The position numbers were made by a program, and so were the translations under genes. This document shows positions 32,351 through 51,268 of a stretch of DNA of 64,000 nt, piece after piece. Within the stretch, counting starts at the first letter, position 1. Each line of letters begins with the position of its first letter. This DNA is from Leptolyngbya sp. NIES-3755 (lineage in GTDB: Bacteria; Cyanobacteriota; Cyanobacteriia; Leptolyngbyales; Leptolyngbyaceae): NCBI GenBank assembly GCA_001548435.1, contig AP017308.1, positions 4,287,030 through 4,351,029 on the forward strand, read 5' to 3'. The notes below the pieces were generated by a model. That model searched no databases. It was not told the origin of the DNA and saw nothing but the letters and a program-made list of their open reading frames with translations.

Positions 32351-32401
32351 AACCAGGGCGAACGATGGGGATCGAACCCACGAATGGAGGTACCACAAAC
32401 C
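32351..32401 (-). repeat. Left attachment site (attL), tRNA-His 3' fragment
   Basis: 51 bp identical to 51218-51268. Read on the minus strand it runs from the anticodon loop (GGTTTGTGGTACC) through the T arm (GTGGGTTCGATCCCCAT) and the acceptor end CGTTCGCC. The 5' half of the tRNA is missing here, so this copy is not a functional gene. Confidence 0.9.
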
Positions 32402-32413
32402 AACCAATAGAAA

Positions 32414-32438
32414 CGCCTGTACCAAAGCGATACAGGCG
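32414..32438. other. Stem-loop beside attL
   Basis: Perfect 8-bp stem CGCCTGTA/TACAGGCG with a 9-nt loop, 12 bp inside the left repeat. It has no T tract. It may serve the integrase transcript end or the recombination complex. Confidence 0.4.
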
Positions 32439-32521
32439 GAAATCCCAGTAAAATCAAGCTTTTTAACTTGAGCAAATGTACTAAATTGTTCCGAATTGTC
32501 CTGAATGATTCACACAAAAAA

Positions 32522-32539
32522 GGATCAAATCTGGCTCAC
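32522..32539 (+). repeat. Candidate integrase arm-type site, left
   Basis: GGATCAAATCTGGCTCAC, matching GGATCAGATTTGGCTCAC at 51180-51197 (16 of 18). Both copies lie just inside the two attachment repeats and in the same orientation. This copy overlaps the last bases of the integrase gene. Confidence 0.45.
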
Positions 32540-33642
32540 GGTGGCAACGGTCGATCGTTTCGCTGCATTGCTCGATCAAATGCCCGTTGATGCACATCAT
32601 CAGAAATCCAATGATGATAAGTCTCGCTGTGAGTCTTGAGAGAGTGCCCCATCTGTTGCGCTGACAGTTCGACTGGAATATCAAACTCGATCGTTCGGAC
32701 TGCCCAAGCATGACGCAGATTGTAAGGTTTATGGAATCCATACCGAGCAAATGCAGTCGTCACACGGTTTCCGAGTGCTGCATTCGTCTTCCCCGTCACC
32801 TGTGGCAACAGCTTGGTATCCCACAAGTGCCATTTATCCCACCATTCTGGGTAACACGCCCAGACTCGCCGCGCTCCCGTCTTTCCGCCCCCGTGTAGGT
32901 CTTCAGTCAAGCTGAGAACTGGGGACTCTCTAAGCCGTTCTAGGTCAATGTGGAATAGCTCATGATTCCGCAGTCCATAGCAAGCCATTAGACCGAAAGC
33001 ATAACCCCATGATTCATTTTCTTGATTGATGCGATCTCGCCACTCGGAGATCTCCTGATCGGTAGGCAAGTCACGCGGGTTTACTCGTTTTGGTGAGTAT
33101 TTGCCGCGCAATGATTTCGCCTCTAACTCAATGCCTGCAAACTTTGCCAGATGTCCCAGTGCATCTACCCGTCTTTGACGGTTGCGAGTATCCGGATCAG
33201 TCTCAAGAATCGACTGACGCAGGATTTCAGCCGTTAGCGGTTCATCTGGAGGGAGTTGTCCGAATGGTTGCTTGTAGTCGGTTTTCCAAGTGGTTTCAGA
33301 TTTTGGAGTCCGCGATCGACGGTTAAAGTACTCCGTTTCATAGCGCTCGATCCATGCCGAAATCGTGTCAGAAACGGGTGCATCAGGCTCTACCCAGTCA
33401 TCCCATCGGAATTCTCTAGAGGCAAGCTGTCCCGCTAATTCTTTCGCCAGTTCGTTTGCTTTTTTGATTCCAGCGGGATTGCTGTAAATTCCGAGCGGAA
33501 TATATTGCCGATACCATTCGCCTGTACCTGTTCTCGGTGGCAGTTTCGCCCGTAGGGATAGCAAAGATCCCTTACCTCTAGCTTCTACAACCACGCCAAG
33601 TTTAGCCGCCTTTAAGCGGGCATTCAGTTGATCTAGATTCAT
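32536..33642 (-). CDS. int: Element integrase (tyrosine recombinase)
   Basis: A 368-aa tyrosine recombinase predicted to join the element to the tRNA-His gene. The catalytic boxes are YGLRNHELF (Arg I), YNLRHAWAVR (box II) and QMGHSLKTHSETYHHWI with the candidate Tyr nucleophile. The N-terminal 80 residues (RLKAAKLGVVVEARG, LPPRTGTGEWYRQYIPLGI) are shared with the resident recombinase at 3702. The gene faces the left repeat and ends 135 bp from it. It is the last gene of a tightly packed leftward operon and starts 8 bases after the excisionase-like stop. Confidence 0.92.
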   Translation of the reverse strand: MNLDQLNARLKAAKLGVVVEARGKGSLLSLRAKLPPRTGTGEWYRQYIPLGIYSNPAGIKKANELAKELAGQLASREFRWDDWVEPDAPVSDTISAWIERYETEYFNRRSRTPKSETTWKTDYKQPFGQLPPDEPLTAEILRQSILETDPDTRNRQRRVDALGHLAKFAGIELEAKSLRGKYSPKRVNPRDLPTDQEISEWRDRINQENESWGYAFGLMACYGLRNHELFHIDLERLRESPVLSLTEDLHGGGKTGARRVWACYPEWWDKWHLWDTKLLPQVTGKTNAALGNRVTTAFARYGFHKPYNLRHAWAVRTIEFDIPVELSAQQMGHSLKTHSETYHHWISDDVHQRAFDRAMQRNDRPLPP

Positions 33643-33649
33643 TGTTCGA

Positions 33650-33868
33650 TTAGTAAGATTTGCGCTTCTCTGGTGGCAGATTCAATTGCTCAGAGCATCG
33701 ATTCACATGGAATTGCAGCGTAGGACGTTTTGAGTTTGGTGGACTCACATCGCGGTAGTGGAATCCAACCTTAAACATTCCCGATGTGCATAAACTTCTC
33801 AGTTTTTTGGCAGGCAAATCAAGAGCGATCGCTGCCTCAGCCGTGAAATACCAAGTTTTCTCGCTCAT
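33650..33868 (-). CDS. Excisionase-like small DNA-binding protein
   Basis: A 72-aa protein. WYFTAEAAIALDLPAKKLRSL looks like the winged-helix/MerR-like fold of excisionases and AlpA-type regulators (Y-F-T-A-E-A-A..L..L), followed by a wing-like HYRDVSPPNSKRPTLQF. Its position directly upstream of the integrase and in the same operon supports an Xis role. Its ATG overlaps the stop of the preceding 57-aa gene (ATGA). Confidence 0.65.
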   Translation of the reverse strand: MSEKTWYFTAEAAIALDLPAKKLRSLCTSGMFKVGFHYRDVSPPNSKRPTLQFHVNRCSEQLNLPPEKRKSY

Positions 33869-34038
33869 CGCTTCCGATTCGTCTTGTATTCCGAGTAAAG
33901 AATGAGTGCTTTCTCTGCTAGTTGCAGAAGTTTTGCTGAACCAGGACGTTTCGCGATCGCGTCAATCAACCGATGGCAACGCATTCGCATATCGTTAATC
34001 GAATCAGGTTCGTTATTCGATTCAAGAGTGTCGCTCAT
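33865..34038 (-). CDS. Small helical protein, 57 aa
   Basis: A 57-aa ORF below the usual length cut-off: it begins MSDTLESNNEPDSINDMRMR and ends LYSEYKTNRKR. The second half is a basic amphipathic helix. Both of its ends overlap its neighbours by the ATGA pattern (start with the helicase stop, stop with the excisionase-like start), and AGGAGGAG lies before its ATG, so it is very likely translated. The function is unknown; a regulator or replication accessory protein are both possible. Confidence 0.7.
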   Translation of the reverse strand: MSDTLESNNEPDSINDMRMRCHRLIDAIAKRPGSAKLLQLAEKALILYSEYKTNRKR

Positions 34039-37000
34039 GCCGATCTCCTCCTGAAATCCTGTGAATACGATCGCTCAAAGTCTTGTTCTGACTCAATTTT
34101 GTGATTCTGCAATTCTGCGCGATTTGGCGATTCTGCCCGTGTTTCGTCAGTCGAAGTATCTTCACTCGGAACAATCAAACTTAATCGTTCCCGCGCTGCT
34201 ACGAGTGCTTTATCGCGATACTCCCAAGCAGTGTCTTGATGACTTTTGGAGACGCGATCGATTGCCACGGTATAGACGCGCTCTTGTTCCCCGCGCTTGC
34301 CTTTAGTCCGAATTGCCACGGACTTCAAACCAATCTTCTTAAGCAGCTTGCCGCAAACGTCTACGGGGGTGTGCTGTTTGCGCCCTTTCGAGTCGGTGTA
34401 TTCGGGTGCGATCGTCAGTCCAAAATAATATCGGAGCTGCTTCGCGTGATTCACTGCCCATTGTTGAATCGCAATGCAGCGAGGATCAGAATTCGAGAAT
34501 TCAACGCCGCGATCGGCAAGTTGGAGAACCCCGCTTTGTTTTAGTAATTGCGCCCGGACGTATCGTTTGGGCAGTCGGTGAACCATGCCCAATTCGTCAC
34601 GGCAAATCGTCTCGATAGATTCGCGATCGAGTTCCTTGGTAGCAGCAATATTCTCGATCGCCGCCTGAATTTCTGCCCCTCGTCCCAATTTGCCGCGCCG
34701 CTTGATCAAAATCCACAAGCAATTCTCAAAATCGTCAAAGTCGATATCGGGAAATCGTTCACAGGATAGAGTTTTCAACGCTTTGATTTCGTCCTCAAGA
34801 CTGCATTCTGAACTCAGAATCTTCTGAGCCGCGTCGATCGACTCGCACACTGGAGAATCTGCCCACTTTCGAGCGTCTTCAGTATCGATTTCGTTTTGAA
34901 TTTGGCTCAAAACTTTCTGCTCGTCTGAATTTTTGCCCCACTCCTCGATCGTGATTGTGTGCCCTGCTTCAGTCAGCACTGAGATTAGATACTCACGGGC
35001 GATTGCTTTCTGTGCCCCTCGCAAGGCGGACATCTCGGAGTAATAGGATTGAGCCGCTACTAAAACCGCGACTTTACGATCGTCGGTTTCGGCTAAAGCT
35101 CCGATCGCAAAGTGGGCTGAGAATGCCTGTTTCGTTTGATTGAGTGTGCGGTCGATTGCCCGTGGGTAAATCAGAGATTCGTCACCAAAAGTGACAACAA
35201 ACTTAGGACAGCACACGAATCGGGGAACGTTCGGGCGATATCTACCAAGCATTTGCGCCCAGCCGTCCGGGTCGATCGCGCCCACAAAATAGCCGTGAAC
35301 AGACTCGAATCCTTCCCAAGTAATCGAAACGCCTGTCTTAACGGAAGGAGAGCAAATTAGAAAATCAGGCTGATTCTGTTCTAGCCACTCGTTAGGATCG
35401 TCAAAGAATTCGGCAAAAAACCCGCCCCGATTCGTTTCTGAGTCAATTCGGACAATCTTCTTCTCTGGGAATTCCCTCGCCAAACGCCGCTCGATTCGCT
35501 TTCCACTGGCTTGCGCGTCGGTGACAATTAGCTTTCTCGCAGGGGTAAGAATCCCGTCGATAAAGCCGCTCAAGTCTCCAGACCCTAGTGTGACTTCCCA
35601 CGGCTGATTCTGCCGAAAGTGTCGAAAATATCGAACGTTTTTTGAGTGAGAGTACGTTTTGAGCAGTTCAATCGATCGGGGGTGGATCTCTGCTTCTGCC
35701 GAAATAATTGCGCCACTCGCGCCGCAAACAAAACAGACTTCGGAGAAGCGATCGAGGATTTCCCCGTGTTTGCTTCCAAGCGTTTTCCCTTCGATCAAAT
35801 AATCCAAGCCTTGATTGATTTCGTCCAGAACAAGCAATAACGGTCGCTCAACCACGAACCAATCAGGAATTCTATGGAGAGAGTTAAAACAAACTGCTGC
35901 CCCGTGACGCGCTGAAATATCTCGGCAGAAAAGCCGATATCCCTCGCTGTCACTCAAATCGTAGTCGGAACTGTGGGGGATATCTGAGAGCCGCGATCCT
36001 TGCGCCCCAAGCGACAGAAGCGGATCGAGCCTCAAGACGTTGCCGCCGTTCTGAATCCAGCGCTTCACAGTCTGATTGATTCCCGTGTGAGATTTGCCAG
36101 CACCCATGTTTGCTGCGATCGCAGTAATCGAGCCAATTGGAATTTCGCTAGGCAACTCAGGCAGATAATCGCCTGTGCTATCACGGTCTGGGGTGATTTG
36201 CAGGGTCTTAAGCCTGCAAATATTCTCGAAATACTGCCGAGTCAATCCGCATTTCTTCCACTCGTCAAGGGTGAGGGAAGCCGCGATCGTCTGATCTAAC
36301 CAGTCCGCGCCCTTGTGTACAAAAGCGTCGTCAATCCCTTTACCGTCTGCACTGTCCCAAGTCGCAACCGAAACTTTGCAGCCAAGATTTTGAAGAATTT
36401 GCCCCAATTGCCGAATTTGATAGCCGACGTTCCTAACAGTCTTCGGTTTCTCGTCTTGGTCAAAGACGATCGTGACTTGCCGTCCCCTAGTGGCGAATTC
36501 TCGCAGAATCGGGAATAGCTCTTTACTGCCTTTAGGATGCCAGTTCGCGACTCCTCGCAGTGCGATCGCTGGATATCCTTGCTGAGTGAGCAGAACAGCT
36601 TTCTTCAGTCCCTCAGTGAGATATATCGGCAGGTTGCAGCGTTTAACGGTTCTCCAGAATGACTCGCTTTCTAATGGGGTAACGCCATGTTTCTCGAAAA
36701 TCTTTCGCGCCACTGCTTCGGAAACAAACGGCAGAATCGGTAGAGCCTCGCACTTTCCGGGGGTTTCGTATTTGATTTTCTTGCGTTTCTCAAAGTCGAT
36801 TCTCGGAACTCTCGGCTTGAAGTAAGCAACCTCACCTCGATCTCCGTCGATCGTTGAACCATAAGCGACCCATCCACCTAGAGCCGCATTCTCGTAGCGT
36901 CTGAGGATTGATTGAGCCGATCGCGTGACGTATTGGACGCTTTGAGATTGCGCGATCGCATACTCAGACAGAACTTGAACAGCCTCATCGCCTTCAATCG

Positions 37001-37142
37001 TCTGAATATTAATCGAGGTCATTTCGGCGGTAATGCCGCTCGATTTGAAGTCAGCGATCGCCCATTCTTCTAAAGTTTGGGGCTGGGCTTTCCCGCCGAT
37101 CGTTTCGGTTTGCAGCCTGCCAAATACCCTAGGCGCAATCAT
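34035..37142 (-). CDS. Replication protein with TOPRIM-like (DUF3854) and SF2 helicase-like domains
   Basis: A 1035-aa protein and the largest gene of the element. Residues about 100-290 resemble DUF3854/TOPRIM (LPIYLTEGLKKAVLL with the Glu, VTIVFDQDEKPKT with D-x-D, GKGIDDAFV). From about 335 there is a helicase-like ATPase: AANMGAGKSHT (Walker A), LLVLDEINQGLD (DExx), and GWAQMLGRYRP (Q-x-x-G-R-x-R motif VI). The C-terminal 300 residues are helical and unknown. Such TOPRIM-helicase fusions act as primase-helicases or initiators in cyanobacterial plasmids and phages. GGAGGT five bases before ATG 37142 decides the start. Confidence 0.82.
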   Translation of the reverse strand: MIAPRVFGRLQTETIGGKAQPQTLEEWAIADFKSSGITAEMTSINIQTIEGDEAVQVLSEYAIAQSQSVQYVTRSAQSILRRYENAALGGWVAYGSTIDGDRGEVAYFKPRVPRIDFEKRKKIKYETPGKCEALPILPFVSEAVARKIFEKHGVTPLESESFWRTVKRCNLPIYLTEGLKKAVLLTQQGYPAIALRGVANWHPKGSKELFPILREFATRGRQVTIVFDQDEKPKTVRNVGYQIRQLGQILQNLGCKVSVATWDSADGKGIDDAFVHKGADWLDQTIAASLTLDEWKKCGLTRQYFENICRLKTLQITPDRDSTGDYLPELPSEIPIGSITAIAANMGAGKSHTGINQTVKRWIQNGGNVLRLDPLLSLGAQGSRLSDIPHSSDYDLSDSEGYRLFCRDISARHGAAVCFNSLHRIPDWFVVERPLLLVLDEINQGLDYLIEGKTLGSKHGEILDRFSEVCFVCGASGAIISAEAEIHPRSIELLKTYSHSKNVRYFRHFRQNQPWEVTLGSGDLSGFIDGILTPARKLIVTDAQASGKRIERRLAREFPEKKIVRIDSETNRGGFFAEFFDDPNEWLEQNQPDFLICSPSVKTGVSITWEGFESVHGYFVGAIDPDGWAQMLGRYRPNVPRFVCCPKFVVTFGDESLIYPRAIDRTLNQTKQAFSAHFAIGALAETDDRKVAVLVAAQSYYSEMSALRGAQKAIAREYLISVLTEAGHTITIEEWGKNSDEQKVLSQIQNEIDTEDARKWADSPVCESIDAAQKILSSECSLEDEIKALKTLSCERFPDIDFDDFENCLWILIKRRGKLGRGAEIQAAIENIAATKELDRESIETICRDELGMVHRLPKRYVRAQLLKQSGVLQLADRGVEFSNSDPRCIAIQQWAVNHAKQLRYYFGLTIAPEYTDSKGRKQHTPVDVCGKLLKKIGLKSVAIRTKGKRGEQERVYTVAIDRVSKSHQDTAWEYRDKALVAARERLSLIVPSEDTSTDETRAESPNRAELQNHKIESEQDFERSYSQDFRRRSA

Positions 37143-37441
37143 GCCGCACCTCCGTCGATCGTCTGTTCGATCGCCCACCAAATCTTGCTACGATCTCGGC
37201 TTCTCCCGATCAACCCAATCGCTCGGTAGGCTTGCGATCTCGTTAGTTGAATTGCTGCGAACCAATTCCCGCAACTGATATAGAATCGGTCTTCTGCAAG
37301 AGAAAGATTAGGTGGAACGCGATCGAGAATTAAATCTGAAGGCGTTCCAGGGAGTGATCGCGCTTGAGTCTCGTTAGACTCAGTGTTAGAATTAGAAAAA
37401 CAGCATTTTTCTGCTGTTGCGAGAATTTGTTTTTGCCGCAT
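37139..37441 (-). CDS. Small protein upstream of the replication gene, 100 aa
   Basis: A 100-aa protein with no recognised family. The N-terminal 40 residues are polar; the rest (VPPNLSLAEDRFYISCGNWF, AIQLTRSQAYRAIGLIGRSR) may be a small winged-helix or HTH. Its stop TGA overlaps the start of the replication protein (ATGA), so it opens the leftward rep-xis-int operon. The promoter should lie in 37442-37541, which also holds a G/C stem with a T tract on the plus strand (near 37462-37494). Confidence 0.6.
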   Translation of the reverse strand: MRQKQILATAEKCCFSNSNTESNETQARSLPGTPSDLILDRVPPNLSLAEDRFYISCGNWFAAIQLTRSQAYRAIGLIGRSRDRSKIWWAIEQTIDGGAA

Positions 37442-37541: not shown

Positions 37542-38291
37542 TTAAGCATTTGTTACAATGCCCTCACGCCAAATCTCCCCGCTGAGTTTTTGCGATTCGT
37601 GGATGTGGGATGCTAAAACTTGCCCTAGAGTGTTGCTGGCTTTTAGAAGTGCCTCGTAAGCATCCTGAAGCACAAGATCGTATTGACCAGCTTGTTCAGC
37701 AACATTGATGCAGAATTCTTGCAGTAAAAAATACTCTCTGCCATGCGCGAGGAAATGAGCGCGATCGCTGAAATACTTCCGTACTTCCCGCTTTTCAGCC
37801 TTGTTTAACGTGTCGATCGGCTTCTCGATTAACTTGAGTAAGCGTTTCGACGGGCGTAGGATTGTCCGCGCTGATTTCACAGAAATTGTGTGATGGGCAG
37901 CAAGAATCGGGGCAATCTGCAACTCTGCTCGATCTTCCAAAATTTGGACAAGTGTAGCCCCAGGTGAGTTGGGGATTGAATAATTGACATGAGCGGCAAA
38001 CGCTTTAATCTGCCGCCATCCCAAGCTCAGGACGTTATACAAGTTGACGTAAACGTTCCTCAACGCTCGGTAGATGTCGTTTAGCTCTGGGTGTTCTAAT
38101 TCTGGATCTGGCTCTCCTGAAAAAAATGCCTTCAGATAGCCTCTTAAATCCAAGCTGTCTTGCTTTATCTTCCACCAGCGGTCGATTTGCTCTTGACTTA
38201 CACAAACAGACAAGTAGCCCTCTGGCGGAAGCTGATTCAAAACAGTCAGAACTTTCTCTTGTGTTGGACGATCTTGCAGAATTATTGCCAC
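37542..38291 (-). CDS. Hypothetical helical protein, 249 aa
   Basis: A 249-aa protein with no family that I recognise. It is largely helical, with a Trp-rich N-terminal third (QEQIDRWWKIKQDSLDLRGY), a basic middle (ARTILRPSKRLLKLIEKP) and an acidic-alternating end. There is no signal peptide or TM helix. It is separated from the rep operon by 100 bp and from the RHH-like gene by 50 bp. Codon use looks like that of its neighbours in the element. Confidence 0.6.
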   Translation of the reverse strand: MAIILQDRPTQEKVLTVLNQLPPEGYLSVCVSQEQIDRWWKIKQDSLDLRGYLKAFFSGEPDPELEHPELNDIYRALRNVYVNLYNVLSLGWRQIKAFAAHVNYSIPNSPGATLVQILEDRAELQIAPILAAHHTISVKSARTILRPSKRLLKLIEKPIDTLNKAEKREVRKYFSDRAHFLAHGREYFLLQEFCINVAEQAGQYDLVLQDAYEALLKASNTLGQVLASHIHESQKLSGEIWREGIVTNA

Positions 38292-38731: not shown

Positions 38732-39319
38732 CTACCCTGCACTCAGAATTTGCTCTGCCGTCAATTGCAGGTCTGGGAATGTGGGCGAGATGACGCGATC
38801 GCTTCCTCGAAACGACAGCGATCGATAACTTCCGTCCACCAGTTCCAGCACGTTCACCACGGCGCGACTCGGATCAACCTGCCAAAACTCACGAATTCCT
38901 CTTGCAGCATACTCGCGTGGTTTTTCCACGTAATCGCGATCGTGGTTTTTCTCCCCAGGGTTTCCCGGTGATACCACTTCGACAATTAGCGCGGGTACTG
39001 GCATGGTGGACAGAATTACCGAGGTTTTAGCCCCCTCTAACGCGATCGCACATTCTTCCGACAGCACAACAAAATCAGGCTGTCTGACCGTAGCTTCTTG
39101 ACTGTTAACGGCAATCTGTATCCCAATGACCAGCAAATCTGTTGAGATTCCTAGTCTGACAAATGCCCCAAACAGGAAGGATGCAATTCTTTGATTCAAT
39201 CGGCTCTCTGGAGGCATTTCGACTAATTCCCCGCGAACCAATTCATAACGGGTGTCTGTCTCATCGTCATAGCTCAGATATTCCTCAATCGTTCTAAATC
39301 GTGGTTTGGCTTGGGTCAT
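38732..39319 (-). CDS. Uma2-family putative nuclease (element copy)
   Basis: A 195-aa paralogue of the protein at 31695, close to it over the full length (YELVRGELVEMPPES, QPDFVVLSEECAIAL, VEVVSPGNPGEKN, KPREYAARGIREFWQVDP). The fold is PD-(D/E)XK-like and the biological role of the family is unclear. Its likeness to the chromosomal copy just outside attL suggests gene capture or shared ancestry. The 46-bp gap to the RHH gene upstream suggests co-transcription. Confidence 0.85.
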   Translation of the reverse strand: MTQAKPRFRTIEEYLSYDDETDTRYELVRGELVEMPPESRLNQRIASFLFGAFVRLGISTDLLVIGIQIAVNSQEATVRQPDFVVLSEECAIALEGAKTSVILSTMPVPALIVEVVSPGNPGEKNHDRDYVEKPREYAARGIREFWQVDPSRAVVNVLELVDGSYRSLSFRGSDRVISPTFPDLQLTAEQILSAG

Positions 39320-39365: not shown

Positions 39366-39635
39366 TCAGTTTTCCTCATCGTCGGAAGGGGCGCGATCGT
39401 CGTTTTCTGACTTCTTTCTTTTACCTGCATTGGGACGCGCCCCTCCCCGTGCTTCAGGTAATGGTTCGGCATCTGGGGGAAGTTTGCCTACTGATTTTGC
39501 ATAGCTGAAAAGAATTGTTTCACACAGCGCGTTGAAACTCATGCCGCTTTCTTCAGCCTTTTCCCGAAGTGCTGACAGTATTCGTTCATCTAATCTGAGT
39601 TTCGTGTCTTTTCGGGGCATCTCGATCGCAAGCAT
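39366..39635 (-). CDS. Ribbon-helix-helix transcriptional regulator
   Basis: An 89-aa protein. MPRKDTKLRLDERILSALREK followed by GMSFNALCETILFSY is a clear RHH unit (beta strand, helix, turn, helix). The C-terminal 35 residues are charged and disordered (Gly/Arg then Asp/Glu rich). GGAGG nine bases upstream supports ATG 39635. It faces a promoter region containing repeated TCAAATACGGTAC sites at 39692-39830, its likely operators, from which the rightward operon also departs. Confidence 0.75.
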   Translation of the reverse strand: MLAIEMPRKDTKLRLDERILSALREKAEESGMSFNALCETILFSYAKSVGKLPPDAEPLPEARGGARPNAGKRKKSENDDRAPSDDEEN

Positions 39636-39691
39636 TTGTTTTTACCTCCATTCATTAAATAGCTTCACCTCACTATAACAATCAAAATATC

Positions 39692-39830
39692 CCGTATTTG
39701 ATTCGACTTGCTTATATCAAATACGGTACGTTTTGAAGACTAAGAACCAATCAATTTAAGGCTTACAGCGTCTCTAATACGGTTTTTTAATCATAAGTAA
39801 CAGTCATCTCAAATACGGTACATTTTGAAA
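39692..39830. promoter_or_regulatory. Repeated operator-like sites in divergent promoter region
   Basis: Two 21-bp direct repeats TCAAATACGGTAC(G/A)TTTTGAA start at 39717 and 39809. A reverse half-site CCGTATTTGA at 39692-39701 forms a 10-bp inverted pair with the first repeat. A further CTAATACGG lies at 39775. The sites lie between the RHH gene (minus) and the rightward RNA/operon region. Confidence 0.65.
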
Positions 39831-39852
39831 ACAATCGAGTTATATTTGATTT

Positions 39853-40917: not shown

Positions 40918-41262
40918 ATGATCTACCTGTTGCATTTCAGCGATCGCATCAGCCCGAATCATACAACTCAGCATTATGTAGGATTCACCGATTCACTGAG
41001 CGATCGTATTTCTGCTCATGTTCAGAATCGCTCTGGAGTCTCGCTCATCAATGCGGCTCACGAGAGAGGAATCAGTTTCACAGTCTCGCGGGTGTGGAAG
41101 GGCGATCGGAAACTTGAACGACATCTGAAAAGTTTGAAGTGTGCCCCGAAATTCTGCCCCCATTGCAGCGATCGACCGTGGCAATTATTCCACCCTGGTT
41201 CGACAAGACAGGCGCGGGAATTGAGCGGATTGCGGCTAAAAGACGCGCTCTTGTTCAACTAA
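40918..41262 (+). CDS. GIY-YIG-like nuclease-fold protein
   Basis: A 114-aa protein. MIYLLHFSDRI and HYVGFTDSLSDRISAH resemble the two GIY-YIG strands and the following helix with Arg; ERGISFTVSRVWKGDRKLERHLK supplies the strand and the candidate Glu. A C-P-H-C motif follows (APKFCPHCSDRPW). GIY-YIG proteins cut DNA in homing, repair and phage defence. The catalytic set is close to the consensus but the first motif is Y-L-L / Y-V-G, so activity is not certain. GGGAGGG lies before ATG 40918. Confidence 0.65.
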   Translation: MIYLLHFSDRISPNHTTQHYVGFTDSLSDRISAHVQNRSGVSLINAAHERGISFTVSRVWKGDRKLERHLKSLKCAPKFCPHCSDRPWQLFHPGSTRQARELSGLRLKDALLFN

Positions 41263-41307: not shown

Positions 41308-41358
41308 CACTCTAAAACACGTCAAACCATTGCAAAGAAAGGGATTGAACCGATTCTT

Positions 41359-43540: not shown

Positions 43541-43696
43541 ATGAAATCGAAAACCAAATCGAGGCTTACGGGTATTGCGATCGCTGCATTCTTCTTGCTG
43601 ATTGCATTGACCAACCGGAACTATCAGAGACGGGTCAAGGCGAATCCGACTCCACCTGACAGACCGATCATCGAGAATTTCGATTCGCGGCGTTAA
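43541..43696 (+). CDS. Single-pass membrane mini-protein, 51 aa
   Basis: A 51-aa ORF located from leader module 3. MKSKTKSRLTG is a basic cytosolic start, IAIAAFFLLIALTN a single TM helix or signal-anchor, and the rest a Pro-rich basic tail (RRVKANPTPPDRPIIENF). It is shorter than the usual gene-calling limit. No family was recognised. Confidence 0.6.
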   Translation: MKSKTKSRLTGIAIAAFFLLIALTNRNYQRRVKANPTPPDRPIIENFDSRR

Positions 43697-43724: not shown

Positions 43725-43801
43725 AGCCGATCGCCCAGCCCGTGACAAGGAAAGCGATCGGCTCACCCCAACAACATCAAATCACTGAGGATTTTCTAAT
43801 C
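43725..43801 (+). promoter_or_regulatory. Leader module 4
   Basis: Perfect 10-bp stem AGCCGATCGC/GCGATCGGCT (43725-43734 and 43754-43763), linker CACCCCAACAAC, GAGG at 43787-43790, ATG at 43802. Confidence 0.75.
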
Positions 43802-44131
43802 ATGCACCAAACTATGCACGTCGGATATCACGGCGCGGGTTTCGACAGTCCAGCGTACAAGCTCACTGAAATTTGGGGCGATTGTCTAGAAAAGATTACG
43901 AGCGGTGACAAGCTTGCTTTGATTGCGGTTCTTGCAGGTTGGCTGTCTGAAGATGACGAGAGTTACAGCATTCCACAAGCTGTTGAAGATTGCTCTCTGT
44001 CTTGCTCTGAAGCTTTCTATCTCTACACTTCTTTCTTGGCGGAACGAGAACGTCCCCTTACTCCCGATGATGCTTTGAGCTTAATCGCAGCATTGACCGC
44101 ACAACTCAAAGGAGGCGTGTACGCGAAATGA
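43802..44131 (+). CDS. Hypothetical helical protein, 109 aa
   Basis: A 109-aa protein starting MHQTMHVGYHGAGFDSPAYK, followed by several predicted helices (LTEIWGDCLEKITSGDKLAL, EDCSLSCSEAFYLYTSFLAE). It is acidic overall. The start is set by leader module 4, against the ATG at 43742 in the stem. Its stop overlaps the next ATG (ATGA). No family was recognised. Confidence 0.6.
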   Translation: MHQTMHVGYHGAGFDSPAYKLTEIWGDCLEKITSGDKLALIAVLAGWLSEDDESYSIPQAVEDCSLSCSEAFYLYTSFLAERERPLTPDDALSLIAALTAQLKGGVYAK

Positions 44132-44271
44132 CCCCAGAAAGACGAGCAAGAATCATTGCTGGAGTTCTAATTGGGCTTGCAATTCTGCAATTGATTCCCA
44201 TCCTTCCAACAGCATTCGATTTTCTCAAAGTTCGCATCGAACAAGATTTTTTACACGAGGGACAGCAATGA
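44128..44271 (+). CDS. Single-pass membrane mini-protein, 47 aa
   Basis: A 47-aa ORF with MTPERRARI, a TM helix IAGVLIGLAILQLIPILPTA and a short charged tail ending LHEGQQ. Both its start and its stop overlap the neighbouring genes by ATGA, which strongly supports translation. It is the second single-helix mini-protein in this operon. Confidence 0.65.
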   Translation: MTPERRARIIAGVLIGLAILQLIPILPTAFDFLKVRIEQDFLHEGQQ

Positions 44272-44810
44272 AAGACCTACAAAACTTCTTCAACGAACAC
44301 AAAGCTGAGTGCTTTTGTGGCGCGATCGCAGTCGTCGTTTTATTAACCAATCTCGGCAGCATCAAGCAATTCGTCGGTGAAAATAATCAATTGCGCGAAT
44401 CAATGAAGGCAGAGCAAGCCGACAATCAACGATTGGAAGTTGAGCAATTGGTATCTGAGCAGCGCAGAGAAGTGGCAAACGATCGCTATCGAAACAATTG
44501 CACCATGATTTTCTCGCTCAATCAGAAAGGGCATTATGGCGCAATTACAGAGGGATCGCCCGTCATCCGAGGCGAATTGGCTTCCAAGCTTCGCGGCAAG
44601 CAATTAGATTATCGCAAGATGTCGATCGATACGTTTCTGCCAGCAGGGATGACCATCTGTGATCCCTTGGGCAATACCGCAAAGCTTGTTAAAGATCCCA
44701 ATTTGAACGGGATTGCAGTAGCGCGTGATATTGCCAACACGGGCGATCGCGCTTTGATTCAGGCAGCAATGGATCGCGCTCGTGGCATCTTTAACAATCC
44801 AGTCAAGTAG
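44268..44810 (+). CDS. Membrane-anchored coiled-coil protein, 180 aa
   Basis: A 180-aa protein with a short N-terminal polar part, one TM helix (CGAIAVVVLLTNLGSIK), a coiled coil (about 40-75, ENNQLRESMKAEQADNQRLE) and a C-terminal domain of about 100 residues (DTFLPAGMTICDPLGNTAKL) that would be outside the cytosol if the helix is a signal-anchor. No family was recognised. Its architecture, with a helix, coiled coil and exported domain, is like that of structural parts of secretion or conjugation machines, but this is only a resemblance. Confidence 0.6.
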   Translation: MKDLQNFFNEHKAECFCGAIAVVVLLTNLGSIKQFVGENNQLRESMKAEQADNQRLEVEQLVSEQRREVANDRYRNNCTMIFSLNQKGHYGAITEGSPVIRGELASKLRGKQLDYRKMSIDTFLPAGMTICDPLGNTAKLVKDPNLNGIAVARDIANTGDRALIQAAMDRARGIFNNPVK

Positions 44811-44818: not shown

Positions 44819-45541
44819 ATGAAAGGAACAAACACAGGTACAGAAACCAATTGGAAAGACAACGCGAAAGGATTCGCACACCGAGCAGGCACAGAAGCGC
44901 GGGATGCAATGGATAATCCCTTATTCGGTTTCATCGCTTGGACGCTTGCGATCGGGCTTGGGGTGGCACTGGTACGAGTTGCAATTACCAACATTGAGCC
45001 TTACTACTCGCTGTTTCAGGGAGCAAGTAATGACGCGCCGTGGGTGAAGAATCTCCCAGTTCTCGGATGGTTTTTGACTCAATGGAACACAGTCATTAGC
45101 GCGATCGGTGCGATTCTCGTATGGGCAGTGGTGCAAATCTTCCAAGTGCTTTGGATTCTAATTGCACTCGATCGTAAAGCAAAGCGAGGAGCGCTGAAAG
45201 ATGCCCGTCGAAGTGGGATTGACCCGAATAGTTTCAGCGATCGGCGTTCTCGCAAAGTGGCTAAGGGATTGAACGGCATTCCGTTCTTCTTCATCCGATG
45301 GTCTGCGTTACTCGCGCTTGCTGCTTATGCGTTCGATTTCACGGTGGGGATTCACAAGTATCCGCCTGCTCGGAACTTGCAGGTTTTCTTTGTGGCGATC
45401 GCATCAGGCATTACTAGCCGAATTGATTGGGGCAACTTCTGGAAGCTGTTGATCATGATGTTTAGCTTTGAAGCTTTGCTGATTCCATTCGTGATTGTGG
45501 TGTTCTGGCTCCGAGCGCGTCAAGCAGACAGCGAGCTGTGA
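44819..45541 (+). CDS. Polytopic membrane protein, 240 aa
   Basis: A 240-aa protein with about five TM helices: LFGFIAWTLAIGLGVALVRV, VISAIGAILVWAVVQIFQVL, WSALLALAAYAFDF, and a pair near the C terminus ending IPFVIVVFWLRARQ. A basic cytosolic loop (DRKAKRGALKDARRSG) lies in the middle. GTAGGAGA lies before the ATG. No family was recognised. It sits between the coiled-coil protein and the TraG/FtsK-like ATPase and may be the membrane partner of the latter. Confidence 0.65.
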   Translation: MKGTNTGTETNWKDNAKGFAHRAGTEARDAMDNPLFGFIAWTLAIGLGVALVRVAITNIEPYYSLFQGASNDAPWVKNLPVLGWFLTQWNTVISAIGAILVWAVVQIFQVLWILIALDRKAKRGALKDARRSGIDPNSFSDRRSRKVAKGLNGIPFFFIRWSALLALAAYAFDFTVGIHKYPPARNLQVFFVAIASGITSRIDWGNFWKLLIMMFSFEALLIPFVIVVFWLRARQADSEL

Positions 45542-45613: not shown

Positions 45614-47146
45614 ATGTTAAGTCGTTATGACGATGCAGAGCGCAAATTCAGCCCGGACCAAATTGAAGACAAGATCGAAGATTTTGAAGAGCAAGTTTCA
45701 GGCAAGCTCACCAATGCACCGACCGGACGCTTTTTAATTGCAGCCGGAATCTTCGGAGCGCTCGTGATTCCGTGTGGACTGCCAGCCGCAGGAGCGATCG
45801 CGCTTCCGTTTCTGGTGAATGCGGTGAAGAAAGCTATCAGAAACGGACATCAAGCTGAGTACGTTGCTAAGACGGGTATTTTTTGCCATTTACTAAACCA
45901 TCGGGAAATCGCGCAGTTGATTCGATTCACAGGTCGCAAATTCATCATTGATCAAGCAGTGCAAGCACACATCGACGGGATGAAGCTCACCCCGGCAGCG
46001 ATCGAGCTAGTTGAAATGATTGAAGGTGAATTGACTCCCACATCATTCGATGAAGTTAAGAAAGCATTTGCACCGGAGCCACAGAAAGAACTTGCAGCCG
46101 TGGGAAATAAGACTCGGTTGGGTGCAATTGACGTACCAGCCCAAGCGGTGAGCAACAGTGAGCAGTCGCAATCATCGGGGTCTATTCCCGTGATTAGTCC
46201 CGTTGATTATTTGGTGGGCGATCGCTTGCGTACTTCCCTTGTCGTCTCTGTTTCAGGAGGCGGAAAGGATTTCTTGCTGTCGAATGCGGTAAGAAAGTTT
46301 CTGGAGTTGTACCCACGATTCAGCGTCGTTGTGATGGATTGCAAGGACGATGCGAAAGAGTTCGGTTACTTTGCTGATTTGCCACGGGTGAAAGTGTATC
46401 GGCTCAATTTGTCAGTTTCGTCTGATTCCACGATCTCAGCATGGATTGATGCGGTGCTGGATGACTTCAATAGCCGTCCTGAAAAAACATTGTTGATTTG
46501 CAACGAAGGAACACTCGTTCGGGAGAAGTCAAAACGATACATTGATGCGATCGCATCATTAGTTAGTTCTGGAGATTCACGTCAAAAGTACGCTTGGGAA
46601 GCTGGACAATCAGGACATACCGATGATTTGAAAATTAACGGTGCGGCGCGTTCTCGTTTCCGTCCAATGGTGATTTCAATGATGGGTGAAGAGATGCAAG
46701 TAGAAGCCATTTTAAGAGCGAAATGGTTAGCAGATTCAACCAACGATATGCAGGCTTGTAAATCAGAAATGCGGCGTTCACCTGTGGGTAGAGCATGGTC
46801 TGATGGTCAACGATGGTACGCAATGCCAACCCTCGAAAATCATGCGGGATACGATCGTGATTCTCGCTCATTTGTGCAACCTGAAACCGAAACAGTTTCG
46901 GTAGCATCAGAACCGATTCAAGACAGCAAAGAAGCTGAGGACATCAACGATAGAGGCAGCATTCAGAAGCCGAATCTTTCCCGCGCTGATTTGATGCTTG
47001 CAATCGGAATTTTAGGCGAATGGATTGATGAGAATCCAGGACTATCTTTCGATCAGATGTACGGGAATTATAGCGCTCGTCGTAAGGGTTTTAGTAGACC
47101 TGAGTTTCGCTATTTGCTAACACAAATTGAAATTCTCGATTCCTAG
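45614..47146 (+). CDS. TraG/FtsK-like membrane ATPase with atypical P-loop
   Basis: A 510-aa protein. Residues about 35-75 form two TM helices (LIAAGIFGALVIPCGLPAAG, AIALPFLVNAV). The ATPase domain begins near 215: VVSVSGGGKDFLLSNA stands at the Walker A place, but with Asp after Lys instead of Ser/Thr; VVVMDCKDD is a Walker B-like strand and TLLICNEGT a sensor-like strand, and DSRQKYAWEAGQSGHTDDL may be the arginine-rich sensor part. A C-terminal helical domain (LMLAIGILGEWIDENPGLSF) follows. It is the last gene of the operon. A role in DNA movement at the membrane is an inference from fold and context. Confidence 0.65.
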   Translation: MLSRYDDAERKFSPDQIEDKIEDFEEQVSGKLTNAPTGRFLIAAGIFGALVIPCGLPAAGAIALPFLVNAVKKAIRNGHQAEYVAKTGIFCHLLNHREIAQLIRFTGRKFIIDQAVQAHIDGMKLTPAAIELVEMIEGELTPTSFDEVKKAFAPEPQKELAAVGNKTRLGAIDVPAQAVSNSEQSQSSGSIPVISPVDYLVGDRLRTSLVVSVSGGGKDFLLSNAVRKFLELYPRFSVVVMDCKDDAKEFGYFADLPRVKVYRLNLSVSSDSTISAWIDAVLDDFNSRPEKTLLICNEGTLVREKSKRYIDAIASLVSSGDSRQKYAWEAGQSGHTDDLKINGAARSRFRPMVISMMGEEMQVEAILRAKWLADSTNDMQACKSEMRRSPVGRAWSDGQRWYAMPTLENHAGYDRDSRSFVQPETETVSVASEPIQDSKEAEDINDRGSIQKPNLSRADLMLAIGILGEWIDENPGLSFDQMYGNYSARRKGFSRPEFRYLLTQIEILDS

Positions 47147-48275: not shown

Positions 48276-48842
48276 TCAATGCTGTCCTCGTCGTTGTTGC
48301 ATATAGCCTTTCATGTACTCGCGCTTATATTCAGTGCGATCGCGACTGGGAATGATGACTTCCCCGATCAGCTCGAAATACTCCCGAAACCTCGATTTCC
48401 GCTTACCCAGATAAAACAGTACCGAGGGGAACGGAGCCGCATTGCCCTTATTTTTGGCGTTCAAGAACTTTAGCCGCCCGTGGATGTTGCAGCGTGGATA
48501 CTCGCTCAGTCGTTTGTACCACTGGGTATCGGTGCGACTGGGAACCAGAAATAGAATTTGCTGAGCATTGCCTGATTCGTATTCGATCGCGACTTTGTTC
48601 GCCCAATCTTTCAACGCATTACCGTAGGGCGGATTCACGAACACTTTTCCATGCCACGGTTGCGACAGTCCATCATCCTCGATCGTGAACTGTTGCCGAG
48701 AGGGAGTATGCGGATTTTCGCGATCGTTGCAGCAGGGGTCTAAGTCGATTAAGTCATCGTAGAAGCGCAGAACGCGATACAACAAATCGTGAGGTGTGTA
48801 GTGTTCGTTGTCGTTTGAACTGAACATCAAATCATGGTTCAT
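48276..48842 (-). CDS. Phage-type DNA N6-adenine methyltransferase (Dam family)
   Basis: A 188-aa enzyme that methylates adenine in DNA. The start MFSSNDNEHYTPHDLLYRVL, then DLIDLDPCCND (SAM-side acidic motif) and KVFVNPPYGNALKDWANKV with the catalytic N-P-P-Y, then FLVPSRTDTQWYKRL, match the small phage Dam family (PF05869). Such genes are common in prophages and satellites, where they protect element DNA or mark replication. The basic tail ends MKGYMQQRRGQH. A nested stem (48237-48290) covers the 3' end of the gene. Confidence 0.85.
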   Translation of the reverse strand: MNHDLMFSSNDNEHYTPHDLLYRVLRFYDDLIDLDPCCNDRENPHTPSRQQFTIEDDGLSQPWHGKVFVNPPYGNALKDWANKVAIEYESGNAQQILFLVPSRTDTQWYKRLSEYPRCNIHGRLKFLNAKNKGNAAPFPSVLFYLGKRKSRFREYFELIGEVIIPSRDRTEYKREYMKGYMQQRRGQH

Positions 48843-48897
48843 TGGTTAGACCCAAAAACATTAGATTGTTAGACACTATTATAACGCTTAAAATTGT

Positions 48898-49458
48898 CTA
48901 ACCGATGTAATGGCTGACATTTGTGATGTCACGATGTCCGCTGATTTGCGCGATTTCATGCGGTGCATACCCTTGTTTGTGCAAATTGGTGATGCCACTT
49001 CGACGAAATGAATGGGTAGACGCGCCATCAAAGCCAACACGATCGCAAGCTTCCCTTAAAATCTCATCTGCCATCCGCGCCGTTAAATGCCCAGTCTTAC
49101 TGCCACGGCGACCGGGGAACAGATAGGGGGAATTGACAGAGCCGCGCTCATTCACCCAGGTATCGAGAAACGGCTTCAGATTTTCATCGATCGCAATCTG
49201 ACGAGTCGCACCCTTGCCTTTCGTTGTGGACTTCCGAAAGGTAATCACACCGTTCTGAACGTCAGTGAGTTGCAACTGGACACATTCACTAATGCGGCAA
49301 GTGGTGAAATAGCAAATTGCGAATATGCAGCGATCGCGAGTTGTTTGCAATCCGTCTGAGAATAGCCGAGATAGTTCGTCAGCACTCAGGATTTTTGCTT
49401 TTCCGTGGCGATTTACTTTCCTCGCAATTTGAGGCTGAAAGTTCAGGTCAAAGTTCAT
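48898..49458 (-). CDS. Short tyrosine recombinase lacking the N-terminal domain
   Basis: A 186-aa XerC/integron-like catalytic domain. Arg I lies in FTTCRISECVQL, a Lys-containing hairpin in TTKGKGATRQI, box II is THSFRRSG and the end SGHRDITNVSHYIG holds the GH and the terminal Tyr. A separate N-terminal core-binding domain is missing (usual length 300-400 aa), as in some plasmid and cyanobacterial stand-alone catalytic recombinases. ATG 49458 is preferred to 49479. It may resolve dimers of the circular form rather than integrate it. Confidence 0.82.
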   Translation of the reverse strand: MNFDLNFQPQIARKVNRHGKAKILSADELSRLFSDGLQTTRDRCIFAICYFTTCRISECVQLQLTDVQNGVITFRKSTTKGKGATRQIAIDENLKPFLDTWVNERGSVNSPYLFPGRRGSKTGHLTARMADEILREACDRVGFDGASTHSFRRSGITNLHKQGYAPHEIAQISGHRDITNVSHYIG

Positions 49459-49489
49459 CCGTTCTGTCTCAAAAATCACTCCTCTATCT

Positions 49490-49518
49490 TATTTCCGAAA
49501 ATACTATTTTCGGAAATA
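49490..49518. promoter_or_regulatory. Near-perfect 29-bp palindrome upstream of recombinase gene
   Basis: TATTTCCGAAAAT-ACT-ATTTTCGGAAATA, 13-bp arms and a 3-bp centre, 31 bases upstream of the recombinase start and flanked by CCTC/GAGG. It may be an operator for divergent genes or a crossover site for the neighbouring recombinase (XerC/D sites have a similar two-arm plan). Confidence 0.6.
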
Positions 49519-49673
49519 GAGGTATCAAACCCGCATTCTCTCGTTATCGAATCATGCGATCGCGGAAAATCGAAGCACAGATAAGCGCTTGCTATCAATC
49601 GGAAGCGGTGAAAATGCCAGAAATGCCGCTATTGATAAGCTAGGCTGATGGCACAGGTTGATATCAAGCCAAA

Positions 49674-50072
49674 ATGAAAAGCAAGTCGAGCGACATGATT
49701 CGCGTCGTTAATCCGCTTATCCCCTCAGTGCAAAAATTAAATAGTTTGCATCGAAACGGTTTTCAAACTGAGGTCGAGCGAGGATTGAAAATTTTGATTG
49801 GGGCAATTGAACGAGGCGAATCAATCGGAGATTCTGCAATTCTGCGGAGACTCGATCGAATAGAGCGACTTTTCACGCAACAATCCCCAGTCACGATCGC
49901 AACTGAGCCAAAAATTTTGACCGAGGCGGAATTATGCGATCGCTTTAATATTTCCCCGCATTGGCGATTGCGTGTGCCTCATGGTTGGGTGGCTGAATTT
50001 TGGCTGTCTCAGAAAATCGGAGCCGAATATTTGGGGAACGATCGATATCAAATCAATGTCCCGAAACTGTGA
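49674..50072 (+). CDS. Hypothetical DNA-binding-like protein, 132 aa
   Basis: A 132-aa protein. The N-terminal 60 residues (SLHRNGFQTEVERGLKILIG) may be an RHH or helical dimer unit; a linker leads to a C-terminal part (LTEAELCDRFNISPHWRLRV, GAEYLGNDRYQINVPKL) that resembles a short winged-helix or excisionase-type domain. No family is certain. It is the only rightward gene in the right end of the element and overlaps the convergent 91-aa gene by 20 bp. Confidence 0.6.
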   Translation: MKSKSSDMIRVVNPLIPSVQKLNSLHRNGFQTEVERGLKILIGAIERGESIGDSAILRRLDRIERLFTQQSPVTIATEPKILTEAELCDRFNISPHWRLRVPHGWVAEFWLSQKIGAEYLGNDRYQINVPKL

Positions 50073-50328
50073 GCAACATCCACGGGCAACGACTGAGATT
50101 ACGATCGCCCAACAATAGAACCTGCTTCGATGGGTCATATCGATTCAACGCATCGCCAAATCTGCTCGGAATTCTCGGCAGGTCCCGCACTGGGAAATAT
50201 TTGATTTCTCCGCCGTCGAGCAGAGTGAAGCCTTTGCCGTGTTGTGCAGCGAGTCTGGGCACGATCGATAATCTCTCCATCAACTCGCGTTCAACGATCA
50301 AAGATTTTGCATAAGGATCTCTAGCCAT
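50053..50328 (-). CDS. Hypothetical protein, 91 aa
   Basis: A 91-aa protein, MARDPYAKSLIVERELMERL to SRCPWMLLTVSGH. It mixes helices and strands and holds no motif that I know. Its start overlaps the stop of the TerS-like gene by 8 bases, so the two are co-transcribed. If the upstream gene is a small terminase, this may be a packaging accessory protein, which is speculation. Confidence 0.55.
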   Translation of the reverse strand: MARDPYAKSLIVERELMERLSIVPRLAAQHGKGFTLLDGGEIKYFPVRDLPRIPSRFGDALNRYDPSKQVLLLGDRNLSRCPWMLLTVSGH

Positions 50329-50905
50329 TCTTCAACTCCTGCATTACCGAAATGTTCGGGGCAACGACTTGCAGCCCCGTCCGTTCTACTGCTGCAATAG
50401 CCCGGTTCAGGTCGAGATATTCCATCGACAACACCAGCCGCTCACCTTTGACACACCGATCGATGACGATCGAGCAAGTGTTGAGCGCATCGAGGCTAAT
50501 CTCGCTCATCTTCTGCTCCTGCTCTGCTTCGATTTGGCTGACATCTGCACCAAGCGATCGTTGTAAATCCTCTTCAATCCGAAGCGCTTCGAGTTGTCGC
50601 TGGATGTAGCGCACCTTGATTTCTGCAATTTTGCGGCAAATCTGGAATCCTGAGAGGTGTTCGATCGAGAGTTTTGCCCACTGCTCAGCTAATTCGTCAC
50701 TCGCTTTGTCGATCGTCTTGGCTTCAATTTGTTGATACAGTTCGGATTGAAACTGTTTGCGCTTGGATACCCATTTTCCCGTCGATCGCCATCGCTTCAA
50801 GGTCGTTTCGGGAACGCCTGAAAGCTCAGATAGTTGATTCAAACTGCCTTTCTCGCGCTCAACAAACCAGCGCAAGCACTCAGCCTCACTCCATCGACGC
50901 GCCAT
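50321..50905 (-). CDS. Phage small terminase (TerS)-like DNA-binding protein
   Basis: A 194-aa protein. The N terminus holds an HTH, LNQLSELSGVPETTLKRWRS followed by TGKWVSKRKQ, in the manner of small terminase subunits that recognise packaging sites (L-A-x-x-x-G-V-x-x-x-T-I-x-x-W-x-x-x-x-K-W). A long helical part (about 55-150) for oligomerisation follows. No large terminase, portal or capsid gene is in the element, as in satellites that redirect helper-phage packaging. It could alternatively be another HTH protein. Confidence 0.5.
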   Translation of the reverse strand: MARRWSEAECLRWFVEREKGSLNQLSELSGVPETTLKRWRSTGKWVSKRKQFQSELYQQIEAKTIDKASDELAEQWAKLSIEHLSGFQICRKIAEIKVRYIQRQLEALRIEEDLQRSLGADVSQIEAEQEQKMSEISLDALNTCSIVIDRCVKGERLVLSMEYLDLNRAIAAVERTGLQVVAPNISVMQELKNG

Positions 50906-51217
50906 AAAATACTCGTTTTTCGATACCAGTTAAGGACATTATAAATAGCGGATTGGTGCGATCGTACTTCTGATTTCTGGAATTGTCGATCGCGCTTCAA
51001 GTGTGTGTGAGAACCGGAGTATAAGCGTTCTAGTTATTTAAACCAGCTTCTCACACACAACAAAAATGGCGGCATCACACTCGGTATTCATGGGTTTCTA
51101 TGGGTGCTTTTCTCCCTCAGAAGTTGTGAATACGGCATTGATCCGCAGTTCCAGTCTATTCAATTGTCAGCGGGTTCTAGGATCAGATTTGGCTCACAAT
51201 TTGAAGCCGACTGCTAG
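50906..51217. promoter_or_regulatory. Right-end non-coding region with inverted repeat
   Basis: 312 bp without a supported gene. It holds the promoter of the TerS-like gene and a perfect 11-bp inverted repeat GTGTGTGAGAA (51001-51011) and TTCTCACACAC (51046-51056), plus the arm-type motif at 51180-51197. It is the P'-arm side of the attachment site. Confidence 0.45.
51180..51197 (+). repeat. Candidate integrase arm-type site, right
   Basis: GGATCAGATTTGGCTCAC, 16 of 18 identical to 32522-32539, 20 bp inside the right attachment repeat. Confidence 0.45.
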
Positions 51218-51268
51218 AACCAGGGCGAACGATGGGGATCGAACCCACGAATGGAGGTACCACAAACC
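51218..51268 (-). repeat. Right attachment site (attR) within tRNA-His
   Basis: 51 bp identical to 32351-32401. It covers the anticodon loop to the 3' end of the intact tRNA-His and six bases beyond it, so the tRNA stays functional after integration. Confidence 0.9.

Follow-up and report, generated by a model that had tools for sequence, protein, structure and literature searches.

The sole tRNA gene in a 64,000-nucleotide stretch of the Leptolyngbya sp. NIES-3755 genome (contig AP017308.1, positions 4,287,030 to 4,351,029; hereafter the window) adjoins an island of 18,867 bp, raising the question of what kind of element has settled there and how it is maintained and moved. The initial annotation had proposed an integrative element in tRNA-His belonging to no described family, either a self-replicating integrative plasmid or a phage satellite. 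The former is the best reading: with a probability of about 75%, the window element is an integrative, self-replicating low-copy plasmid, its replication being deduced from homology. Furthermore, it apparently belongs to an undescribed family of plasmid-like elements residing in several tRNA genes. The claim of novelty agrees with the open-licence literature (subscription papers were outside the scope), in which no recognised description of such an element or operon was found.

A direct repeat of 51 bp delimits the element, its two copies being identical at 51/51 positions and spaced by 18,867 bp, with a chance expectation of approximately 4e-22. The right copy constitutes the 3' half of an intact tRNA-His(GTG) identified by ARAGORN, whereas on the left there is only a 3' fragment; the repeat runs from the anticodon side of tRNA-His through its 3' end and includes five trailing bases. 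When the flanks are joined by script, tRNA-His is followed by the left flank. This arrangement confirms the boundaries first proposed, as does the comparison of related genomes: the tRNA-His region holds a single repeat copy in four same-genus genomes (G001, G002, G004, and G006), and a second copy lies beside a relative of the element's integrase, Int1, in G005 and G007. G003, whose match begins at query base 180, was left out of this count. The outcome named as contrary to integration, namely stable core DNA in relatives or no related element elsewhere, was not encountered. Near the core of the attachment (att) site, 12–18 nt past its edge, the inverted repeat GCCTGTAC...GATACAGG is present at 12 of 13 Int1-type sites (window counted), the single exception being the host's own tRNA-Phe element; at these 13 loci, the tRNA 3' half at the left end was recognised by eye or by the repeat. 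In addition, a possible arm-type site has a partner at the opposite end, and comparable paired arm matches exist in the host's tRNA-Phe element and in that of G006.

The tRNA 3' halves and Int1 were used to search eight genomes of the genus, and 11 repeat-bounded elements were delimited, 10 of which have an integrase of Int1 type, with an identity of 64% or more. Four tRNA genes are occupied: tRNA-His (window, 18,867 bp; G005, 7,474 bp), tRNA-Phe (host's own, 15,078 bp; G006, 24,579 bp; G005, 20,131 bp), tRNA-Lys(CTT) (G002, 29,647 bp; G005, 25,045 bp; G001, 23,545 bp; G007, 32,775 bp), and tRNA-Met (G005, 4,323 bp). The host's sister in tRNA-Phe has a 46-bp repeat (98%), and its integrase is 77% identical to that of the window. 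The stop codon of the integrase lies 174–191 positions inside the element edge in all eight Int1-bearing elements scanned for genes. Extra 3' fragments at which no tRNA is called were found for Lys in 4/8 genomes, Phe in 6/8, Met in 3/8, and His in 3/8 (G003 not judged), some pairs being split over contigs. A further candidate, G006_Met (16,277 bp), has a tRNA-Met repeat, a weak match to the conserved operon protein p129b, and no Int1-type gene, and was placed outside the family count.

The full core set is kept in seven of the 10 elements, window included, the three reduced members being the tRNA-His, tRNA-Met, and tRNA-Phe elements of G005. Hidden Markov models (HMMs) detect Int, Xis, ParM, and p129b in all seven full elements, and an open reading frame of 994–1291 aa occupies the replication (Rep) place close behind Int-Xis in each. 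A protein of HerA/FtsK fold (hereafter the ATPase-like protein), 528 aa in full frame at 45560–47146 of the window and passed over in the initial annotation, is detected by HMM in 6/7; in the seventh, the tRNA-Lys element of G007, it was identified by eye through its N-terminal sequence, together with weak AAA matches below the cut-off. Each ATPase-like protein adjoins a protein of 230–328 aa with predicted transmembrane (TM) segments. The HMM of the window's TM240 matches the window and G002 only, and that of p180 the window and the tRNA-Lys element of G005 only, the remaining counterparts being assigned by position and hydropathy. The Rep place itself is exchangeable: it holds DUF3854 in the window, DUF3854 with a D5-type helicase in G001 and G002, PriCT_2 in G007, weak DEAD matches below the cut-off in G005 and G006, and, in the host's own tRNA-Phe element, a protein with no Pfam match and 17.7 bits to the Rep HMM. 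As a control, loci with an integrase below 51% identity (10 scanned of 12) gave no ParM, no ATPase, two p129b, and three Xis-like matches. At locus G007_C121, ParM and p129b were found with no ATPase match. G027 (L208, 2.6 kb) lay outside the integrase identity comparison, and G004_C57, G198_C1a, and G007_C27 lay outside the gene-content scan.

The conserved core is under purifying selection. In seven gene comparisons, dN/dS ranges from 0.04 to 0.16 (with dS of 1.0–1.9, near saturation), and such low ratios indicate that the element genes are kept. Relatives of Int1 at E ≤1e-60 occur in 138 of 388 genomes of the class. In a tree of 15 integrase proteins, obtained by a short search with SH-aLRT support only, the tRNA target switched at least six times, and the His insertions have more than one origin among Lys- or Phe-using relatives.

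The annotated proteins (Table 1) were scanned with Pfam (28 element proteins and two neighbours) and PHROGs (20 element proteins), while Rfam, NCBIfam, and PADLOC were applied to a selected stretch or selected proteins only. The integrase, the TOPRIM replication protein, ParM, the Dam-type methylase, and the second recombinase all stand as first named, the integrase by its PHROG match despite a Pfam score below the cut-off. The excisionase-like gene has no match in Pfam or PHROGs, but its position next to Int throughout the full elements favours the original call. Likewise, the small partner of ParM has no Pfam match, but it is supported by its position and by a 75%-identical relative behind ParM on contig G007:C24; ribbon-helix-helix (RHH)-like proteins occupy the same position on plasmids. 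Its HMM has no match in the six other full elements, in which an RHH partner was assigned by eye. The supposed iteron array shrinks to a few repeat copies, and this AATACGGTA-type cluster, situated between divergent genes, is more likely an operator or partition site than an iteron array.

The links to plasmids extend beyond single genes, and the operon copies on plasmids and plasmid-like contigs, together with the single-copy sites and the sister elements, support both the integration and the plasmid-like nature claimed earlier. On a 25.5-kb plasmid-like contig (G006:C5), p180, TM240, and the ATPase-like protein have counterparts 78%, 91%, and 75% identical, accompanied by ParM, a CyRepA1-like Rep, a short recombinase, and a relaxase match, and an 84-kb plasmid-like contig (G006:C4) carries another operon copy and a relaxase. 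Relatives of the window Rep occur in 223 plasmid records. Those of the window ATPase-like protein (tblastn) occur in 18, and a Calothrix relative used as query retrieves 57, 29 of which are matched only within its first 257 residues. Distant operons of similar order exist on circular plasmids, mostly of Nostocales: Scytonema HK-05 plasmid6, Nostoc HK-01 plasmid3, Fischerella NIES-4106 plasmid5, and pNPM6 show the row of small proteins, a TM protein of 238–260 aa, and an ATPase-type protein, as in the window. ParM is detected by Pfam in the first two and not in Fischerella plasmid5 or pNPM6. Unlike the window element, these plasmids are free circles with other Reps and, in pNPM6, a relaxase; the ATPases of such plasmids are 23–26% identical to that of the window (five aligned). 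The membrane operon, comprising the small TM proteins, TM240, and the ATPase-like protein, probably serves as a module for DNA transfer or mobilisation.

According to the passages cited, CyRepA1-type cyanobacterial plasmids such as pSYSA encode a replication protein of DUF3854 with a helicase (PMC10079941, PMC10899382). The window element shares this composition; unlike those plasmids, it sits in a tRNA gene and carries Int and Xis, and its Rep is divergent.

Several observations weigh against a mobile, self-replicating plasmid. A 185-bp query from the left end matches the host assembly at the two known places only, with no free circle or attP. The window Rep scores 150.5 bits against the CyRepA1 model NF042913, for which the NCBI cut-off is 200, and thus appears related to the CyRepA1 family, not a member by NCBI's rule. 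Among PLSDB plasmids there is no close relative of Int1, three records matching at 32–41%, and the ends of contig G006:C5 have no terminal overlap and thus give no sign of circularity. At G198_C6, where the integrase is 72% identical, neither ParM nor the ATPase is found within 20 kb. The relaxase PF03432 and the coupling protein PF02534 (VirD4) are each found in 0/7 full elements, and the general Pfam scans of the window-element proteins contain no other relaxase family, no search having been aimed at these. The ATPase-like protein of the window has degenerate Walker motifs and so may not hydrolyse ATP. Finally, genes for phage packaging or phage tails occur in four of the sister elements. 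As regards transfer, relaxases are present outside the elements in 8/8 genomes and the PF02534 coupling protein in 7/8, so that helpers are at hand.

The phage genes bear on the alternative that ranks second, a phage satellite whose Int-Xis-Rep block and terminase-linked gene near the other end would be packaged by a helper phage. PICI (phage-inducible chromosomal islands) and P4 have such a layout, with the terminase-linked gene near the opposite end, and share with the window element a tRNA site, a primase-helicase-type Rep, and the size range. In scans of the sister elements against PHROGs (10 larger proteins, then 10 more), the tRNA-Lys element of G005 revealed a terminase large subunit (phrog_38, E 9.8e-110) with a helix-turn-helix (HTH) gene upstream, and tape-measure proteins with metallopeptidase parts were found in the tRNA-Lys element of G002 (E 1.6e-45), which has tail-fibre-like genes too, and in the tRNA-Phe element of G006 (E 1.1e-21). 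The tRNA-Lys element of G001 carries a tail-hub/M23 protein, and the window's Dam methylase matches a PHROG methylase family. Against this, no capsid, portal, or terminase match and no secure packaging or virion gene was obtained among the 20 window proteins, and a complete prophage was rejected on the same scan.

A TerS identity of the HTH protein at the right end was not supported: its top named match is far below the cut-off (Table 1), its fold was modelled with low confidence (pLDDT 52), and no convincing profile match to the sister TerS-like proteins was found. It matches the HTH proteins of G005 and G006 no better than shuffled sequences do (0.3%, with shuffles reaching up to 1.8%), and that of G002 over 21 HTH residues only (9.5%, with no control); those sister proteins themselves score weakly or not at all as terminase small subunit. 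The HK97-type capsid PF05065, the one capsid type sought, is present in 0/8 genomes. In IMG/VR, no confirmed relative of Int, Rep, the ATPase, or the tape-measure protein was found, and terminase large subunit relatives (31–36%) were found at five loci; in a phage collection, Int matched three records at 22% and Rep one. The ParM and ATPase operon, common to plasmids, also distinguishes the window element from P4 and PICI, as does the lack of a secure packaging or capsid-diverting gene. Tycheposons, likened here by description and not gene by gene, are likewise tRNA-integrated in cyanobacteria and carry a recombinase and a replication gene. No phage gene type occurs in more than two of the seven full elements, whereas the plasmid core is constant; this scattering places the integrative plasmid first and satellite life second. 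A satellite is unlikely for the window copy, in which no secure phage gene was found among the 20 proteins scanned, and conceivable for the family through its four phage-gene-bearing sisters.

Equally improbable is self-transfer of the kind seen in actinomycete integrative and conjugative elements (AICE), in which the ATPase-like protein would pump double-stranded DNA into a neighbouring cell with the help of the small membrane proteins and without a relaxase. In the passages of the source cited, pSAM2-like AICE combine tRNA integration, Int-Xis-Rep, an FtsK-superfamily protein, and small membrane proteins (PMC3218068). The window element resembles them in all four respects, with one FtsK-superfamily protein, and the absence of PF03432 from the full elements suits such a mechanism. 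It differs in having ParM, in its non-actinobacterial host, in its Rep, which shows DUF3854 only in place of RepSA, RepAM, or Prim-Pol, and in the lack of any Pfam match to FtsK_SpoIIIE (PF01580), the domain of the AICE Tra protein. The relaxase of integrative conjugative or mobilizable elements was not found in a PF03432 search or in the Pfam scans of 28 element proteins, and the type IV coupling protein (PF02534) of the conjugative ones occurs only elsewhere in the genome.

The 528-aa protein has no match in Pfam, NCBIfam, PHROGs, or PADLOC. Its AlphaFold2 model has a mean pLDDT of 62, with a core (residues 195–422) mostly at 72–90 per block and two blocks near 60, and as modelled it matches the HerA/FtsK superfamily: an R388 secretion complex chain (Z 14.7), FtsK (14.5), STIV B204 (14.4), HerA (14.3), TrwK/VirB4 (14.2), TcpA (13.9), and TrwB (12.3). 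The rows for VirB4, FtsK, B204, HerA, and EccC are tied or close, so that packaging and secretion ATPases are not told apart in subfamily or function. The Walker A motif is atypical (SGGGKD), and the Walker B motif carries NE. In all 19 of the 20 aligned sequences that extend over this part, the Walker A lysine is followed by G or D, never by S/T, and N replaces D in Walker B in the window protein's group. The canonical GKS is found in two sister elements, and by eye, motor parts appear to be exchanged between members having common ends.

The distribution of ATPase relatives is in keeping with a transfer system of this kind. The 57 plasmid records belong to Nostoc, Tolypothrix, Microchaete, Calothrix, Aulosira, Trichormus, Scytonema, Fischerella, and Leptolyngbya, nine filamentous genera, and at least 32 genome loci with ATPase relatives likewise lie in filamentous genera. 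Rep, unlike the ATPase, extends to plasmids of Synechococcus, Synechocystis, Acaryochloris, and Picosynechococcus; the filamentous-only pattern is confounded by phylogeny. Against a relaxase-free route, the ATPase plasmids often have a relaxase, 45/57 being typed as mobilizable or conjugative vs 97/223 Rep plasmids (Fisher p 1.4e-6, the records being redundant and overlapping and 29 of the 57 being matched in the N-terminal part only).

The least probable reading is a dead remnant of an old integration, with which the reduced relics of G005 and the lack of a circle in the assembly would agree, and against which stand the open core genes, the 100% identical att copies, and the low dN/dS.

For the integrative plasmid, we infer excision, autonomous replication, segregation, and transfer. 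Recombination by Int1 between the 3' half of tRNA-His and a 51-bp site carried by the circle would leave the tRNA restored, and Xis would aid excision. Once free, the circle would depend on the large DUF3854/helicase Rep for replication and on ParM with its RHH-like partner for segregation, while the short recombinase likely resolves dimers. The membrane operon would work together with the relaxase and mating channel of a helper. The routes between cells may include helped conjugation, an own transfer machine, or phage packaging.

Table 1. Features of the window element with window coordinates; E values and bit scores refer to the searches described in the text
Feature	Position	Strand	Evidence or remark
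attL, 51-bp copy of tRNA-His 3' half	32351..32401		repeat match
Inverted repeat GCCTGTAC...GATACAGG, putative terminator or binding site	32415..32436		13 nt past att core
Possible left arm-type site AGGATCAAATCTGGCTCAC	32521..32539		right-arm partner 51179-51197, 17/19 identical
Int1, tyrosine recombinase, 368 aa	32536..33642	-	PHROG integrase E 5e-13; Pfam 13.6 bits, below cut-off
Xis-like, 72 aa	33650..33868	-	adjoins Int in 7/7 full elements
Conserved 57-aa protein	33865..34038	-	sister comparison
Rep, 1048 aa, DUF3854 (TOPRIM-like) and helicase part, CyRepA1-related	34035..37181	-	DUF3854 E 6.8e-35
100-aa protein upstream of Rep	37139..37441	-	present in sisters
249-aa protein	37542..38291	-	distant relative in G007_C121
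Uma2-family putative nuclease (cargo)	38732..39319	-	PF05685 E 1.3e-29; PADLOC candidate PDC-S03 E 2.2e-70
Arc-like RHH regulator	39366..39635	-	PHROG E 6e-4; relatives in 3/6 other full elements
AATACGGTA-type repeat cluster	39682..39832		two 27-bp copies, one 13-bp partial, one inverted
GIY-YIG-like protein	40918..41262	+	weak, 17.4 bits, below cut-off; relative in tRNA-Lys element of G007
ParM, actin-like segregation protein	41290..42399	+	ALP_N E 6.7e-9; PHROG partition protein E 3.7e-24
ParR-like RHH partner	42333..42608	+	assigned by position and by eye
51-aa single-TM protein	43541..43696	+	sister and plasmid comparison
p129b, conserved operon protein	43742..44131	+	7/7 full elements; 82% identical in host's tRNA-Phe element
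47-aa single-TM protein	44128..44271	+	sister and plasmid comparison
p180, 180-aa membrane-anchored protein	44268..44810	+	sister and plasmid comparison
TM240, 240 aa, four predicted TM segments	44819..45541	+	91% identical on contig G006:C5
HerA/FtsK-fold membrane protein (model)	45614..47146	+	likely start 45614
Dam-type adenine methylase	48276..48842	-	Pfam E 5.7e-12; PHROG methylase family E 4.3e-35
Short tyrosine recombinase (Int2)	48898..49479	-	E 7.5e-22; relatives in tRNA-Lys element of G007 and on contig G006:C5
HTH protein earlier called TerS-like	50321..50905	-	top named TerS match 15.8 bits, cut-off 120
attR, 51-bp copy inside tRNA-His	51218..51268		repeat match
tRNA-His(GTG), intact target gene	51223..51296	-	ARAGORN

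Further observations concern the surroundings of these features. Two G007 contigs (L104 on C163, L109 on C23) start alike at tRNA-His and then diverge, which suggests mixed populations or alternative insertions. Past the 7.4-kb tRNA-His element of G005 (L103 on C28, 14386–14588), a stretch of 203 bp is 75% identical to the right end of the window element and may represent the remainder of a tandem insertion. A Uma2 gene just outside the element (31659–32282) is 74% identical in DNA to the one inside; the gene has many further copies in the genus, and the pair flanking the element edge is a possible substrate for homologous recombination. Between the divergent operons, approximately 400 bp of GC-rich DNA (39840–40260) contain no evident gene; a known structured RNA was rejected there, with no Rfam match and an ordinary folding energy (z -0.56). 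The host genome (6.76 Mb, four contigs) is rich in GCGATCGC motifs, as is typical of cyanobacteria. A third operon copy on the host chromosome (L161, G000:C1:3660001-3680000) shows ParM, GIY-YIG, p166/TM244-like, and ATPase matches, a relaxase match in a 708-aa frame, and no Int1 match. Cargo of the G007 tRNA-Lys element (L269, C32, 1517–8853) is type I restriction-modification-like by eye. Meanwhile, two circular plasmids, of Microcystis NIES-298 (L278, 17.3 kb) and Picosynechococcus PCC 8807 (L279, 13.2 kb), carry an Int1-like recombinase (40%), a VapE- or DUF3987-type Rep, rows of uncharacterised genes, and, in one, a CHAP peptidase, with no ParM or ATPase match among the proteins tested.

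Plasmid transfer in multicellular cyanobacteria is, to our knowledge, poorly understood, and the ATPase-like protein, devoid of a library match in the window, has relatives on many plasmids of filamentous cyanobacteria. A rather doubtful extension of these observations is that the membrane operon forms a new DNA-transfer system of multicellular cyanobacteria that needs no relaxase and corresponds to TraB/Spd of Streptomyces. It would spread these plasmids between cells, perhaps along the filament, and repeatedly retargeted integrases would let the element hide in different tRNA genes. What had been one odd island becomes a family whose boundaries are exact, whose targets are four tRNA genes, and for which empty sites have been located, which makes its mobility directly testable, and its closely related integrases with switched targets provide a natural series for the evolution of tRNA choice.

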